64,000 nt of DNA. Source: a virus. Positions 2,860 to 31,913 of this stretch are shown piece after piece; position 1 is the stretch's first letter, and each line of letters begins with the position of its first letter. The stretch covers positions 27,220-91,219 of the IMG/VR virus record IMGVR_UViG_3300028197_001183; one strand, written 5' to 3'. The position numbers and the translations under genes are program-made. The notes beneath the pieces were generated by a model, which was not told the origin of the DNA, searched no databases, and saw nothing but the letters and a program-made list of their open reading frames with translations.

Positions 2860-3061
2860 ACCTTTTTTTCCAAATCTCCAAGAAATACCTATCAACTTGA
2901 TACAAGTCAGATTGGTGTGGTGGTAATCTATCTAGGTCTTTAGACCATAACTCACATATAGATTTCATTTCTGGATTGATGCCATTTGGTCGAAACATTC
3001 TACCAAAGGATGACATAGCAAACGCATACCTCATCCTAATGCGTTGATCGGTTAGGGGCAT
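2846..3061 (-). CDS. Small conserved-looking phage protein, unknown
   Basis: The 71-residue basic protein contains RMRYAFAMSSFGRMFRPNG and a charged C-terminal helix. It overlaps the gnd-like gene by 10 bases and the coiled-coil gene by 14. No family recognised. Its place right after the carbon-metabolism genes may be only positional. Confidence 0.6.
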   Translation of the reverse strand: MPLTDQRIRMRYAFAMSSFGRMFRPNGINPEMKSICELWSKDLDRLPPHQSDLYQVDRYFLEIWKKRYDPN

Positions 3062-25359: not shown

Positions 25360-26895
25360 TTAGAACTCTACTACGATCTTAATGTCTTCGATTTGGTCAC
25401 CAGCACGAGTGATAGCGCCTCTATTATCTATGTAAATAACCCGACCCGAATTTGGCTCAACCTCAGGTTTTGCATAACCGTTGGTAAAAGACATACCCAA
25501 GTCATACTCAGTGTTGTTAATAACACGAGTAGATGCACCTGATACAATTGGGAAGTTGATATCAGGGTCTGCAGATGCACCAGATGTTGCACCCACAACA
25601 GGGTTACCACCCTCAAACTCAATTAGACTACCAGTGAATTCAGGGAAGACACCATCAATTCTATTCTGGTAATACTTAAGCACTTTGGTTGTGCTATTCC
25701 ATGAGATCACACGCCCACGGGCAGTCACTTGCTGACCACCAATTGTGCGAGACTGTGTCATAATTTCGTCAGTAGCAAAGTTACCCGTAAAGGTAGGAGC
25801 AAAGATAACTGACTTTGTGGCGGACAGAGTAAGATCTGCTGCCAATTCTGTTGTGCCGAATTTGTTGGGGTTGATCACCAGACCAATACGACGGTAGTCG
25901 TTATCAGTTGGGAAGTCACCACTACCCTCAGCGTAGGTAAATTTGGTGTTGATCATGACTCGGTATCCACCCATTTCTGTCCCTGGCTCAGCACCATGAC
26001 CGACAGTTGGGGGAATGATCACTTCAACGGTGCCACCTGATCCTGCACCTGCACCGATACCGTTGACTTCATCGATGATGACTTTACCGAAGGTGTATCC
26101 TGATCCACCCGATGTGACAGTAGCATTAACAATACGCCCCCCATCGACAACCAGAGAAACACGACCGCCAACACCATCTCCTTTGATAGGCACATTCTCG
26201 TAGGTACCATTGTTATATCCTGCACCAGAAGAAGAAATAATAACTGTATCAATCTCACCACCGATTGCATCAGACACCACAGCGGTGTCACTCAGCACAG
26301 GCATGTATTCGTTAGAGAAGAATTTCAGTACAAGACCCACAGGGATCGTATACATATACTTCCAACGATAACCGTCAGCAGTGGTAATAATAGAAGTTGA
26401 AGTACCCGTAGGCTCAACAGTAGAAGGCTTACCGTTAGGATCACTAGGGGATGTCCCGTTATAGATGCACTTATAGACTTGATACGATGAGTTAACAACG
26501 TAAAAGTCTGCATCATAAAGTTTGGTAGCACCAGAAGATGCGGTTTTAGTTGCACTGTAGTCATGACGATACATATCGTAAACATAACCCAAGCCACCAG
26601 TGGTCTGCTCAGGAGGAATCCAGTCAGTCCTACGAATAACTTGAATAGTATCATTCGCCAGCACCCGCTTCATTGATATCATGTCAGCGAAGTCATCGCT
26701 AAACTCTTGGAAAGAGTCCACAGGATCGGGCGCTGCATTCTCGTTATCCCAAGGTTGGGGACGACCGATGAAAACATACAGACGATCACGACTACTTCCA
26801 GCATCACTATCAGTCTGAGCAGGATCGGGACCTTGCAAAGACTTGATGAGCCGACTGGCAGTAAAAATTCTAAATTGGTCGGTTAATAGCGCCAT
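25360..26895 (-). CDS. 8: Baseplate wedge subunit gp8
   Basis: The 511-residue protein matches T4 gp8 (334) in its first 230 residues: SRDRLYVFIGRPQPWDNENA aligns with the T4 FITFGRSEPW region. RRTDWIPPE and the strongly conserved TTADGYRWKYMYTIPVGL align with T4 GDGYVWEYLFEIP. gp8 bridges wedge subunits of the baseplate. The extra length includes GxGY-type beta repeats (GAGYNNGTYENVPI, GGSGYTFGKVIID) near residues 230-290 and a TSGA unit. A late-promoter-like CATAAATA lies 35 bases upstream. In T4 gp8 directly follows gp7; here three adhesin-like genes intervene. Confidence 0.9.
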   Translation of the reverse strand: MALLTDQFRIFTASRLIKSLQGPDPAQTDSDAGSSRDRLYVFIGRPQPWDNENAAPDPVDSFQEFSDDFADMISMKRVLANDTIQVIRRTDWIPPEQTTGGLGYVYDMYRHDYSATKTASSGATKLYDADFYVVNSSYQVYKCIYNGTSPSDPNGKPSTVEPTGTSTSIITTADGYRWKYMYTIPVGLVLKFFSNEYMPVLSDTAVVSDAIGGEIDTVIISSSGAGYNNGTYENVPIKGDGVGGRVSLVVDGGRIVNATVTSGGSGYTFGKVIIDEVNGIGAGAGSGGTVEVIIPPTVGHGAEPGTEMGGYRVMINTKFTYAEGSGDFPTDNDYRRIGLVINPNKFGTTELAADLTLSATKSVIFAPTFTGNFATDEIMTQSRTIGGQQVTARGRVISWNSTTKVLKYYQNRIDGVFPEFTGSLIEFEGGNPVVGATSGASADPDINFPIVSGASTRVINNTEYDLGMSFTNGYAKPEVEPNSGRVIYIDNRGAITRAGDQIEDIKIVVEF

Positions 26896-26937: not shown

Positions 26938-28814
26938 TCACCCTCATTTCTGAGGAATTTGTTATACTCGACTGCGATGATTTTTGCTTGAGCACCAGAG
27001 GTGTTTCCTTGCAATGTCTCACCAGCAGCAAATTTGTAAGTTGGATCATTACTTTGGATTGATTTAACATCCAAATAATATTGACCTGACCTAGGTGCAA
27101 GTCTTCTTGCTGTTGTAGTTGCTGTGATGCCAGATGTCTGTCCAGCTACGACCTCTTCACCACCTGCAGTGGGGACATTAAACAGAGAAGCCGTAATGTA
27201 TTCAATTGTAATAATTGCAGTAGAGATATGTGAATCACCATCTCCTAATGCACCTGCAGATTGGACAGTAGCAACCAGTTGGTTAGGACTACCATCATAA
27301 ATTTGATCACCAATTTGGAAGAGTGTGGTATTTGTGCCACCCAATTCTTCCTCAATACCATATTTAGACGAGGCAACGCCTCCATCTAAATTAACTTGGG
27401 ATTCATAATCCGTTCCTGTGTTAAGAAGATCGGGAATACCATCTCCAAACTGTTGGATACCATCAGCATCAACATACTCTTCGTCATTATCTTCAAATTT
27501 TCTATTTTGGATAATTGTAAAAGGTGTGGTAAATGCAACAATATCATTACCTTCCAATTCAACCAGAGTATGTGGTGCAACACCAGTTGAAGATGATCCA
27601 GAAGTGCCTGCAAAGAATGCGATAATTTTAGACTTCTCACCTGATCTGCCAGCATCAATAAATGCCAACTCATCAACTTGGAATGTTAGATATAATGCTC
27701 GCTCGGTCTCATCCCAGTCATAGACAATAGCGACTCTATTAGTTGCGTTTTCAACAACACGTCTAACTTTATCAGTAACTTGGAAATTATAAAGAGTGTC
27801 TCCCGTTGCGGCATCATTTTGGAGAGTATCAAGAATGATCTTTTGGTCAAATCTAAAGTTTGTGCCCCTGTCACATCCATCAAATGTTGTAGCAGTTTTA
27901 CCTGTATATCTAACAATTTCTCTACCAAGAAGGAATTTACCAGATCCAGGATAAGGTGCAGTTGATTCAACATGAATGGTTTCGGTGCCAGTTGTCACGT
28001 CGGTCAGAATACCTGACAAATTATAAACAACAGAGTTTAGAGACTGTCTGTTTCTCGCAGTCTTGATTAGGTTTGTATCTCTAGTAAAGATGACCTGAGG
28101 GGAATTTACATAACCAGCACCACCTGCTATGAGGTCGATAGAAGTAATAGCACCAAGATCAATAAATGCCGCAGCACTAGCACCAGATCCACCACCACCA
28201 ATAATTTGAATTAGGGGAGGATCTTCAAAGAATTCACCAGAGTTAGTGAGGGTAATTGCCGTAACTTTACCAAATGGGTTTACACCAGCAACACCAGTTG
28301 CACCTTGACCACCACCACCTGAGATGATAATGTTGACATCTTCTTCGGTATAGTTTCTACCAAACTCTTCAATAGCAAGACCTGTGACTAGACCTGTGAT
28401 AGGCACCAACTCAGATCCAGATCCACCACCACCTTTAACTTCTGCGTCAGTGGCATAGTATTCATCACCAAACTGAGTCATCTGAATGAAGTCAATACCG
28501 CCGTCATCCTTCAGGAAGATCTTACCTTGAGCAGGGACAGATGCATCTTCATCTACAATTTCCAGACGCATGGGATCATACCCTTCACCTGGATCCAACA
28601 CTTCTACAGCAGTGATCTCACCACGAATACCATCGATGACTGGTCTAAGTACAGCATCTCTAATGGGTGTGCCGCAATTTTCAATACGAAGTCTAGGGGG
28701 GTCAGCGGGATCATACCCACTACCTCCTGCAGTAACATAAACTTCTCTTACCCCGAATATACTATTAAATACGGGGAAAATTGAAGCACCAGATCCAGGG
28801 ACTGTTCTTGTCAT
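26931..28814 (-). CDS. Beta-repeat virion structural protein (627 residues)
   Basis: The N-terminal 270 residues consist of GGSGY-type beta modules (TAGGSGYDPADPPRLRI, DPGEGYDPMRLEI, SGGGGQGATGVAGV, AGGAGYVNSPQVIF), the same family as in the giant gp7. The rest is mixed beta sequence. It includes FLLGREIVRYTGKTATTFDG, which resembles the short hairpin region near the start of gp7, and TSGA-type units near the C-terminus (AGQTSGITATTTA, LQGNTSGAQAKII). Its ATG shares a base with the stop of the upstream cupredoxin-fibre gene. It is a likely baseplate or fibre component; no precise function is known. Confidence 0.75.
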   Translation of the reverse strand: MTRTVPGSGASIFPVFNSIFGVREVYVTAGGSGYDPADPPRLRIENCGTPIRDAVLRPVIDGIRGEITAVEVLDPGEGYDPMRLEIVDEDASVPAQGKIFLKDDGGIDFIQMTQFGDEYYATDAEVKGGGGSGSELVPITGLVTGLAIEEFGRNYTEEDVNIIISGGGGQGATGVAGVNPFGKVTAITLTNSGEFFEDPPLIQIIGGGGSGASAAAFIDLGAITSIDLIAGGAGYVNSPQVIFTRDTNLIKTARNRQSLNSVVYNLSGILTDVTTGTETIHVESTAPYPGSGKFLLGREIVRYTGKTATTFDGCDRGTNFRFDQKIILDTLQNDAATGDTLYNFQVTDKVRRVVENATNRVAIVYDWDETERALYLTFQVDELAFIDAGRSGEKSKIIAFFAGTSGSSSTGVAPHTLVELEGNDIVAFTTPFTIIQNRKFEDNDEEYVDADGIQQFGDGIPDLLNTGTDYESQVNLDGGVASSKYGIEEELGGTNTTLFQIGDQIYDGSPNQLVATVQSAGALGDGDSHISTAIITIEYITASLFNVPTAGGEEVVAGQTSGITATTTARRLAPRSGQYYLDVKSIQSNDPTYKFAAGETLQGNTSGAQAKIIAVEYNKFLRNEGEY

Positions 28815-30298
28815 TAGACAACCACGAGATTACCGACCATTCCAGAGTGAATGGTGCATTGATAGACATATGATGTGCCTGCTGCAAGCGTCATAGGCAC
28901 TGTCCAGTATTGGACACCACTTTGTGATCCACTCACACCAGCACTTACAGCAGATCCACCACTCGTCTGTCTCAGAGCAAATGGGTGACCACCACCAGTG
29001 GTGTTGTTAAATCTGTATGTGAATCCACGATAGACATAGATGGTTGGGTTTCCACTTCCACTCCATCCGCCGTTGCTGAAGTTATATCCAGCACTTGTGC
29101 TTCCAGAAATCTCGAAACCAACAGCAGCAGATGAAACAGCTTCAACTTCACCACTTGCATTAGTAATGAAACTCTGATTCTCTGACAGAGTAACGCCACT
29201 AGCAAGAAACAGATCAGCAGCAATACTAACAGTGTTAGCAGTAACAGTTGTTGTTACACCGTTACCACCACTTACTGCCAATGATCCAGTAATGGAGCTG
29301 GAAGTAGTAGTGCCGCTATCACCAGTTACTGTTGCAAAAATGTTTTGATCAGCGTTAGGTGAATCATTGGTGATTGTCAGATTATCGCCATTAATAGCAG
29401 TAGAGACCCCAGTGCCACCAACAAAATTAACAGTGGTAGTAGCAGAATTGGCAGTTTTAGATCCAGAGTCAGATCCAATCACCGAGAAAAGGTTTTGATC
29501 AACATCACCTAACGTCCCAGTCATTGCAATTGTTAATGTATCTCCAGCAATAGACGTGGAGATATTTGTGCCACCAGCCACAGTAAGCACGTCAGTAGGA
29601 GCACTCGCTGTAGTAGACCCCGTATCAGCATTGAAACCTTCAAATAGATTCTGTGTAGTGCTGCCACCACCAGATGCAGTAGCATCGTTGTCTGGATACC
29701 AATGACTATTGGCAGCAGACCACTTGAGCACCTGACCATCGGAGGGACCACCACCAACTGTCATATCAACGTCAGTGAGCTCACCAACACTAGATCCAGA
29801 GTCAATCAGTTGAATCCAAGCACCACCATGTGCAAAGTATCCATGATTTTCAGCATGGACATGAGCAAACATACCATGATGATCTGCTGCTGCAGGGAGA
29901 TCTGCCGTAGTGTCAAAATGGTTTGTATACTTTAACTTACCGTCCGTGCCATCGATATATGTCAGAGCACTTCCAGTGCCACCCGCCCAAAACTTAATAT
30001 CACCACTACCATGAGGTTTGATGACTACATCACCATTAGCGGTAGATCCGATCTCAAATCCACCAACGTCTAAGTTTGAAGTTAGTGTGTCAAAATTTCC
30101 CTCAGCAAATTGAGATCCATTCCATTTCAACAACTGCCCTGCGGAAGGGGTGCCAACATTCACCAACAGGTTGGTGTCATTACCAAGAGCGGTATATAAT
30201 TCGTCAATTACGCTATTCAGTTTGATAGCACCATCTCTGAGACTATCACCTGTTCCGTCATTTGCTGACGATCCAATACTAAGATTCTGTTTTGCCAT
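28814..30298 (-). CDS. Short tail fibre-like protein with C-terminal cupredoxin domain
   Basis: The 494-residue protein starts MAKQNLSIGSSANDGTGDSL and contains LLKWNGSQF and QVLKWSAANSHWYPD, motifs of cyanophage fibre proteins. The middle is a low-complexity Ser/Thr/Gly shaft with repeated GDSGTTT-like units. The last 100 residues resemble a plastocyanin/amicyanin-type cupredoxin. H438 is in GGGHPFALR, and C481-x2-H484-x2-M487 sits in YQCTIHSGMVGNLVVV, a complete type-1 copper ligand set. It has no signal peptide. Its neighbours are tail proteins, so the domain probably sits at the virion surface. Whether it binds copper is untested. Confidence 0.8.
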   Translation of the reverse strand: MAKQNLSIGSSANDGTGDSLRDGAIKLNSVIDELYTALGNDTNLLVNVGTPSAGQLLKWNGSQFAEGNFDTLTSNLDVGGFEIGSTANGDVVIKPHGSGDIKFWAGGTGSALTYIDGTDGKLKYTNHFDTTADLPAAADHHGMFAHVHAENHGYFAHGGAWIQLIDSGSSVGELTDVDMTVGGGPSDGQVLKWSAANSHWYPDNDATASGGGSTTQNLFEGFNADTGSTTASAPTDVLTVAGGTNISTSIAGDTLTIAMTGTLGDVDQNLFSVIGSDSGSKTANSATTTVNFVGGTGVSTAINGDNLTITNDSPNADQNIFATVTGDSGTTTSSSITGSLAVSGGNGVTTTVTANTVSIAADLFLASGVTLSENQSFITNASGEVEAVSSAAVGFEISGSTSAGYNFSNGGWSGSGNPTIYVYRGFTYRFNNTTGGGHPFALRQTSGGSAVSAGVSGSQSGVQYWTVPMTLAAGTSYVYQCTIHSGMVGNLVVV

Positions 30299-30323: not shown

Positions 30324-31913
30324 TTAGGTGCCATCGAAGGTTTGTGCCGTAGAGTCAAGAGTACTCGACGTGCTATCGAATCTATTAGCGGTAGATCCGC
30401 TGCCACCGCCAGATCCAGTAACAGTCAATGTTGCTGCATTGGAGTCAAGTGGTGAGTTTTGTGCTTGAGTTGATACTCCAAGAGGACCGATGATACGACA
30501 ACGGAATCTGTATCCCGTCATATATGTAAGGACGCTGAGAGTATAAGAGTTTGTAGTTGCTCCTGTAATAGCAGCAAATGCGAAACCGCCATCTGTGGAG
30601 CGATACCACTGATAAGCAATAGGTCCGTTTTCTGGACTGATCTCTGCCTGCACAGAGAATGTTGCTGTTTCTCCTGGGTTTGCCGAAGCATTCTGAGGTT
30701 GGTTTGTAAATACCAGAGTTGGGAGGACTGGTGGTCCACCGTCACCACCACCATCAGGGGGAGCTGCAGGTGCTTGTAATGTAAATCCAGTATTGATAGT
30801 CTCTCGTGTCGAGGTCCCAATCATATATGGAAACTCAGGAGCATCAATATCGTCTGGGTCTACAGATAGAAAATACGCATAGGTTCCAGTCTGGAATTCT
30901 GGAGTAATGCAAAATCTACCATTATGGATGTCTAGGTCACCCGTTGCCTCAATATACTCCCAGTCCTGCACCAGAGCGCCTGCAGGGGGGTTTTGAATGG
31001 TGTTACCATAGTCAGGTCTACCTGATGTCTCAACTGATTTAGTTGAGAAAGAAGACTGCATAATTCTGGGAGTGGACAGATTATCCCATGAAGATGCATA
31101 AGCATACGGACCATAGATTGGGAATCCGTCAAATGCAATACCAACGATCTTGGAATGTCCGTCAGGATGTCTCAGGTTGTCACCGTTATATTGTGTAGTG
31201 CCATAATAATCATTGTATCCTGCCATCGATGACCCTTCTCGCCAACAATCAAGGAAGTGTGTATCATGATAATGATACTGACCACTTTGCTCAGGATGAC
31301 CACCACAGTTATCATCACCAAAATCTACAGGAGACTGTGGGTAGTGTGCATTCCAACTAAATCCTACTGGAGGGTTTCCGCCAGCACCAGCAGAAGGATT
31401 AAACAGGGCAACGCCATTAGCAGCAATACCGATAGTGCCTAAAGGTGTAGCACTTCTACCGTTTCGATCATCATAATACTCATATGTGCCGCTAGTTAGA
31501 GACTCTTGGTCTCTCATAATAAGGTCAAGTCTATCTGATGTTGCTAACCAACATTCGTTTTCAATAGATGTAAAGGTAGTGCCTTTATAAAGGAATACTC
31601 TTTTAATACCATCACTGAAGGTAAACATAAGTCTGTCACCCACTTGGATCTCGCTGTTAAACAACGAGTTATCATTACCAGATATGACTATAGACCTAAG
31701 GAATCCGTCTTGATTCCAAACGTTAGTGTCGAATGTGCGACTAATACCAAAGGTCCCACCACGGTAAACGAAAGCATGATCGAAATCTTGCTCCGTTACT
31801 GTGTTTGGGTTATTGGCGTTAGGAAACGTGCCAAACCCCACAGGAGCGGGAAGACCATCCGCCGCTACTGTGAGAATTTCAGTGGCATTGTTATAACTTG
31901 CAGTTGCCCCCAT
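30324..31913 (-). CDS. YHYH-domain and Ig-like domain virion protein (529 residues)
   Basis: Residues about 170-375 match the YHYH domain: GQYHYHDTHFLDCW, GIAFDGFPIYGPYAY and FCITPEFQTGTYAYFLSVDP. Residues about 400-495 form an Ig-like beta sandwich (FTNQPQNASANPGETATFSV, YQWYRSTDGG, GYRFRCRI). A short FDSTSSTLDSTAQTFDGT tail ends the protein. It lies directly after the giant gp7, which carries a related domain. A surface adhesin or decoration role is likely. The biochemical role of YHYH domains is not established to my knowledge. Confidence 0.8.
   Translation of the reverse strand: MGATASYNNATEILTVAADGLPAPVGFGTFPNANNPNTVTEQDFDHAFVYRGGTFGISRTFDTNVWNQDGFLRSIVISGNDNSLFNSEIQVGDRLMFTFSDGIKRVFLYKGTTFTSIENECWLATSDRLDLIMRDQESLTSGTYEYYDDRNGRSATPLGTIGIAANGVALFNPSAGAGGNPPVGFSWNAHYPQSPVDFGDDNCGGHPEQSGQYHYHDTHFLDCWREGSSMAGYNDYYGTTQYNGDNLRHPDGHSKIVGIAFDGFPIYGPYAYASSWDNLSTPRIMQSSFSTKSVETSGRPDYGNTIQNPPAGALVQDWEYIEATGDLDIHNGRFCITPEFQTGTYAYFLSVDPDDIDAPEFPYMIGTSTRETINTGFTLQAPAAPPDGGGDGGPPVLPTLVFTNQPQNASANPGETATFSVQAEISPENGPIAYQWYRSTDGGFAFAAITGATTNSYTLSVLTYMTGYRFRCRIIGPLGVSTQAQNSPLDSNAATLTVTGSGGGSGSTANRFDSTSSTLDSTAQTFDGT

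Follow-up and report, generated by a model that had tools for sequence, protein, structure and literature searches.

The window analysed here comprises 64,000 nucleotides of a virus record of 91,219 bases (IMG/VR record IMGVR_UViG_3300028197_001183). A gene on its minus strand (28814..30298) encodes a 494-residue protein that is assigned to the gp9/gp10-like baseplate wedge/tail-fibre connectors on the basis of PF07880, PHROG 677 and gene order. Residues 3–71 (30086..30292, minus strand) match the T4 gp9/10-like N-terminal domain PF07880 in Pfam (E-value 1.5e-9), PHROG 677 ('baseplate wedge tail fiber protein connector') covers residues 1–265 (E-value 4e-136), and the gene is located among baseplate genes, in keeping with the T4 gp9/gp10 family. 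The genes downstream encode a 627-residue protein and a gp8-like wedge protein (25360-26895). Directly upstream is the gene for a protein with a YHYH domain (30324-31913, minus strand; PF14240, E-value 5.6e-35) and an Ig-like C-terminus. Zinc binding has been predicted for the YHYH domain (PMC7824862), and this protein is a second one with a predicted metal site beside the cupredoxin-bearing connector. The gene order around the connector gene is the same in phages P-TIM40, P-RSM6 and S-WAM1, the records for this comparison having been chosen from a search with a part-composed query (see below). The nearest named relative of the cupredoxin domain is found in P-TIM40 (Kyanoviridae; 86% over 77 residues) and, judged from sequence, the source phage is a Kyanoviridae cyanophage near P-TIM40.

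Residues 3–71 of the connector are presumed, by analogy with T4, to attach the protein to the baseplate wedge, and its location at the baseplate would likewise follow that of the T4 proteins. A His-rich stretch further along the chain, HHGMFAHVHAENHGYFAH (residues 140–157; 29828..29881, minus strand), contains the HxH motif H146-V-H148, which resembles the iron-binding HxH motif of other phage fibres; its histidines are kept in about half of the homologues. The C-terminus is formed by a cupredoxin domain (residues 390–494; 28817..29131, minus strand), identified by AlphaFold2, Foldseek and profile matches. An earlier note on this DNA had recognized a cupredoxin at the C-terminus, which these three methods bear out; it had placed the domain at 28814-29115, slightly shorter than found here, and at the tip of a fibre, whereas the protein is a gp9/10-like connector (PF07880, PHROG 677) with the domain as its C-terminal end.

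The AlphaFold2 model of the last 105 residues, built with an alignment of 65 natural sequences, has a mean pLDDT of 92.5 and a pTM of 0.85, and displays the Greek-key beta-sandwich of cupredoxins. When this model was compared with the PDB using Foldseek, the best 50 folds listed were all cupredoxins, with amicyanin at the top and with rusticyanin, plastocyanin, pseudoazurin, AcoP, nitrite reductases and multicopper oxidases, including laccases, among the others. The TM-scores are moderate (0.45–0.65, about 0.55), and the highest query-normalised value among the matches listed (0.65) belongs to a nitrite reductase. Scores of this size indicate that the fold match is clear, yet that the domain, as modelled, is a distinct cupredoxin branch. 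Blue-copper proteins also rank first when a profile of 14 divergent phage copies is compared with all PDB sequences (plastocyanin 2plt, E-value 3.7e-6; nitrite reductase, 6.6e-6; amicyanin, 8.8e-6). Against PF00127 (Copper-bind) the window domain scores 17.3 bits, below the gathering cut-off of 21.2, and a relative from phage ACG-2014j clears it with 21.5 bits; automatic Pfam annotation should therefore reach at least one relative. The model of the full-length protein is poor (pLDDT 61.5), and the position of the domain in the virion therefore rests on the T4 analogy.

The ordered ligand set of type-1 copper sites, His...Cys-x(2-4)-His-x(2-4)-Met, is present as H438 and C481-x2-H484-x2-M487, the four residues named in the earlier note. 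All four codons are on the minus strand. H438 (28985..28987), the first predicted ligand, immediately precedes a strand of the model and is followed by the invariant P439; C481 (28856..28858), the predicted thiolate ligand and the sole cysteine of the protein, closes a strand; H484 (28847..28849) is located in the loop joining the last two strands; and M487 (28838..28840), the predicted axial ligand, adjoins the start of the last strand. In domain numbering, H49 is found just before strand 51–54, C92 is the last residue of strand 87–92, H95 is within the loop and M98 is just before strand 99–104, so that, according to DSSP of the model, the first His, the Cys and the Met are placed relative to the strands as in canonical cupredoxins. 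A six-frame scan of the window found C-x2-H-x2-M inside a real gene only in the connector, and this uniqueness, the lone cysteine and the invariance of the ligands argue that the motif is not due to chance.

The C-x2-H-x2-M spacing equals that of amicyanin, as had been noted; plastocyanin, to which it had also been likened, has C-x2-H-x4-M, a spacing that is also seen in our alignments. In the profile alignments, the four conserved residues are aligned to H37, C84, H87 and M92 of plastocyanin, which we take to be its copper ligands; the first His pairs with H37 and is displaced relative to amicyanin, since HP there is set against PH. The residue after the first His is the invariant Pro439 instead of the Asn of plastocyanin, amicyanin and azurin, which removes one second-sphere hydrogen bond. 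The laccase type-1 site likewise has His-Pro, and Pro439 is therefore compatible with copper. From the sequence, the spectrum and potential of the predicted site would differ from those of plastocyanin.

All four residues are kept in every complete gp9/10-type relative examined, which answers the question of ligand conservation that the earlier note had raised. H438, C481, H484 and M487 are found unchanged in 38/38 full-length homologues, part of which came from a scan selected by motif pattern, while the other His and Met residues vary, the start Met excepted; 34 of these 38 contain a single Cys. In the 14 divergent copies, gathered by a loose motif pattern, four of the seven invariant columns are the ligands (hypergeometric, 7e-6). 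Rows selected by a Cys-His-Met pattern, which make up part of alignments A3 and A4, were left out as evidence for Cys-His-Met, and conservation of these three residues was counted from the N-terminal-only search and the first viral scan. C-x2-H-x2-M is kept in 30/30 loci retrieved with an N-terminal query that ends before Cys-His-Met, and, in the first viral scan, 79 complete loci match the four ligands, one more copy (L040) being cut by the contig end. H438 is also invariant in alignment A3 and in the 14-copy alignment A1. Cys, His and Met are present in the best-matching copy of each of the 16 records examined, and phage S-SKS1, outside the 14-copy set, keeps them with a longer spacing (C-x5-H-x2-M). 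The domain is at the extreme C-terminus in all 113 distinct full-length homologues, with the Met seven or eight residues from the end. In other tail proteins, remote copies (about 10–40 bits) mostly retain C-x2-H-x2-M while the rest has diverged, the pattern that selection on the site itself would produce.

The window domain, used as a query of pure window sequence, matched 294 phage records, nearly all from Synechococcus or Prochlorococcus phages, and the N-terminal part matched 319. A separate search, from whose hits the records for the gene-order comparison were chosen, used a query in which a stretch of about 28 N-terminal residues was not window sequence but had been written to resemble cyanophage homologues. 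The similar counts of 294 and 319 indicate that the N-terminal part and the domain largely co-occur. Going by these sequences, the cupredoxin domain is near-universal in T4-like cyanophages, and such a domain is unusual in comparison with the textbook phages, though not among cyanophages. The domain recurs in further tail proteins, long-tail-fibre proteins among them, in podovirus P-GSP1 and in a phage of Actinomycetia, and the genomes of P-SSM5 and P-HM1 each carry several copies; a scan of the window for further copies with ligands found none. None of the hit annotations printed names copper.

The closest cellular relatives found, with identities to a phage copy of up to about 50%, are apparently secreted bacterial proteins, including Bacteroidota lipoproteins with CHRD domains. 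In a tree of the domain, phage and bacterial copies are interleaved, with mostly weak support. These closest relatives, PF25489 (At5g54830-like) domains of apparently exported bacterial proteins, share the signature H...LYYxCxxHxxM with the phage domain; their carriers are cellular lipoproteins or secreted proteins, some with CHRD, and not virion proteins, and we know of no copper binding by PF25489 domains. The phage domain agrees with the amicyanin/plastocyanin family (PF00127) in its cupredoxin fold and in the order of its four type-1 ligands. It differs from that family in being a predicted virion part, in the Pro that replaces Asn, and in sequence, with about 17–26% identity over the fold match; to our knowledge, it has no electron-transfer partner. 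The cupredoxin domains of copper nitrite reductases (for example 2vmj and 2dv6), the second-best profile match, also have a C-x2-H-x2-M loop but belong to a multidomain enzyme. T4 gp9/gp10 share the PF07880 N-terminal family and the baseplate wedge role with the window protein, and a cupredoxin C-terminal domain is not known to us in T4.

Sequence profiles, fold prediction and conservation together support the view that the last 105 residues are a true cupredoxin domain whose ligand set is complete. Our best explanation, to which we assign a probability of roughly 65%, is that this domain has a His-Cys-His-Met site predicted to bind copper and a mainly structural and adhesive role at the baseplate periphery. 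One copper ion per chain would most likely be held. The N-terminus would dock on the baseplate wedge in the manner of T4 gp9/gp10, the repeats would build the shaft, and, from the gene family and the C-terminal position, the copper-locked beta-sandwich would be a stable outer end that touches a cyanophage fibre or the cell envelope. If T4 stoichiometry applies, a virion would carry about 18 copies. Genes 10, 11, 12, 34, 35 and 37 are among the T4 genes absent from cyanomyoviruses, and gene 9 is common to some of them (review, PMC2984593); the partner of the C-terminal domain would therefore be some other fibre or the cell surface. The simplest role is that of a stable beta-sandwich locked by metal at the end of the chain, and redox cycling of the predicted copper is at most a possibility.

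The invariance of the four residues, including the lone reactive Cys, among divergent copies with about 30–50% identity makes it unlikely that the beta-sandwich is a metal-free module for adhesion or assembly in which they are kept for packing, since packing does not require Cys, two His and Met. Two observations fit such a module: a remote P-RSM6 copy in another protein (L245, 87715-87879, in a 2539-residue open frame) reads CHHHTGQ, a C-x2-H-x2-Q in which Gln replaces the axial Met, and a 7291-residue giant virion protein of the window (31928-53803, minus strand) has a very weak, ligand-less profile match at residues about 2915–3018 (E-value 0.33), which is possibly a degenerate cupredoxin copy; some relatives may thus manage without the site. 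Gln is also the axial ligand of stellacyanin. Slightly more doubtful is that the site is filled by zinc or iron in the virion, on the pattern of other metal sites in phage tails. Free copper is very low in the bacterial cytosol, where virions are assembled, and the predicted zinc of the adjoining YHYH domain (PMC7824862) and the iron of T4 gp37, one of the known phage fibre metals as cited in PMC11705849, would be in line with another metal. Tail iron is known in phages and has been discussed for marine phages (PMC11705849), and these iron sites and the 'Ferrojan horse' are a further case of metal on tail proteins. The T4 gp37-type site, however, binds iron with octahedral HxH histidines in a trimeric fibre, whereas the conserved site here is His-Cys-His-Met, with one predicted copper inside the beta-sandwich of each monomer, and His2-Cys-Met in a cupredoxin fold is a copper signature.

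A redox switch, in which the copper swaps electrons with the host surface and tunes attachment or contraction, perhaps in light-dependent adsorption, would suit the concentration of the domain in cyanophages and the light-dependent adsorption of several marine cyanomyoviruses (PMC2984593), but the domain is also present in the Actinomycetia phage and in proteins that heterotrophic bacteria secrete, and we consider such a switch very improbable. Mimicry of a host electron-transfer protein, as suggested in the earlier note, is hardly credible: although the hosts use plastocyanin and the fold is common to both, the nearest relatives are other phage copies and the secreted bacterial proteins, which reach about 50% identity to a phage copy, the best plastocyanin match is remote (about 17–26% in the fold match), and plastocyanin acts in the thylakoid lumen and not at the cell surface. 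Host plastocyanin was also considered as the source of the domain and is disfavoured by the low identity.

Cupredoxins are a large known family, and a full-text literature search on cyanophage virions returned nothing relevant about cupredoxins or copper; as far as searched, the conserved domain in a cyanophage virion protein is undescribed. The sequences and the model suggest that these viruses, which are abundant in the ocean, may have copper on their tails. If copper is held, each of these very abundant marine viruses would have several tail copper sites, with a metal not before tied to phage tails within the literature searched. Copper would then join the phage-iron ('Ferrojan horse') idea, there would be a testable handle on cyanophage attachment, and the domain would help to account for the unassigned parts of the cyanophage baseplate, given that several T4 tail proteins are absent. 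That most marine T4-like cyanophages bear a ring of redox-competent type-1 copper at the baseplate periphery, acting in attachment or triggering, with the virions as an ocean copper pool, is a speculative extension that we think unlikely.

The domain is additionally found on six MAG contigs assigned to Planctomycetota, Bacteroidota or Gammaproteobacteria (L208, L209, L210, L217, L218 and L219), in phage-like tail proteins; these are probably mis-binned phage contigs, and the spacing in L217 and L218 is C-x4-H-x2-M. Among predicted structures in BFVD, beta-sandwich proteins of Pithovirus and Marseillevirus (A0A481Z6J5 and A0A481YVH3) resemble the cupredoxin model.
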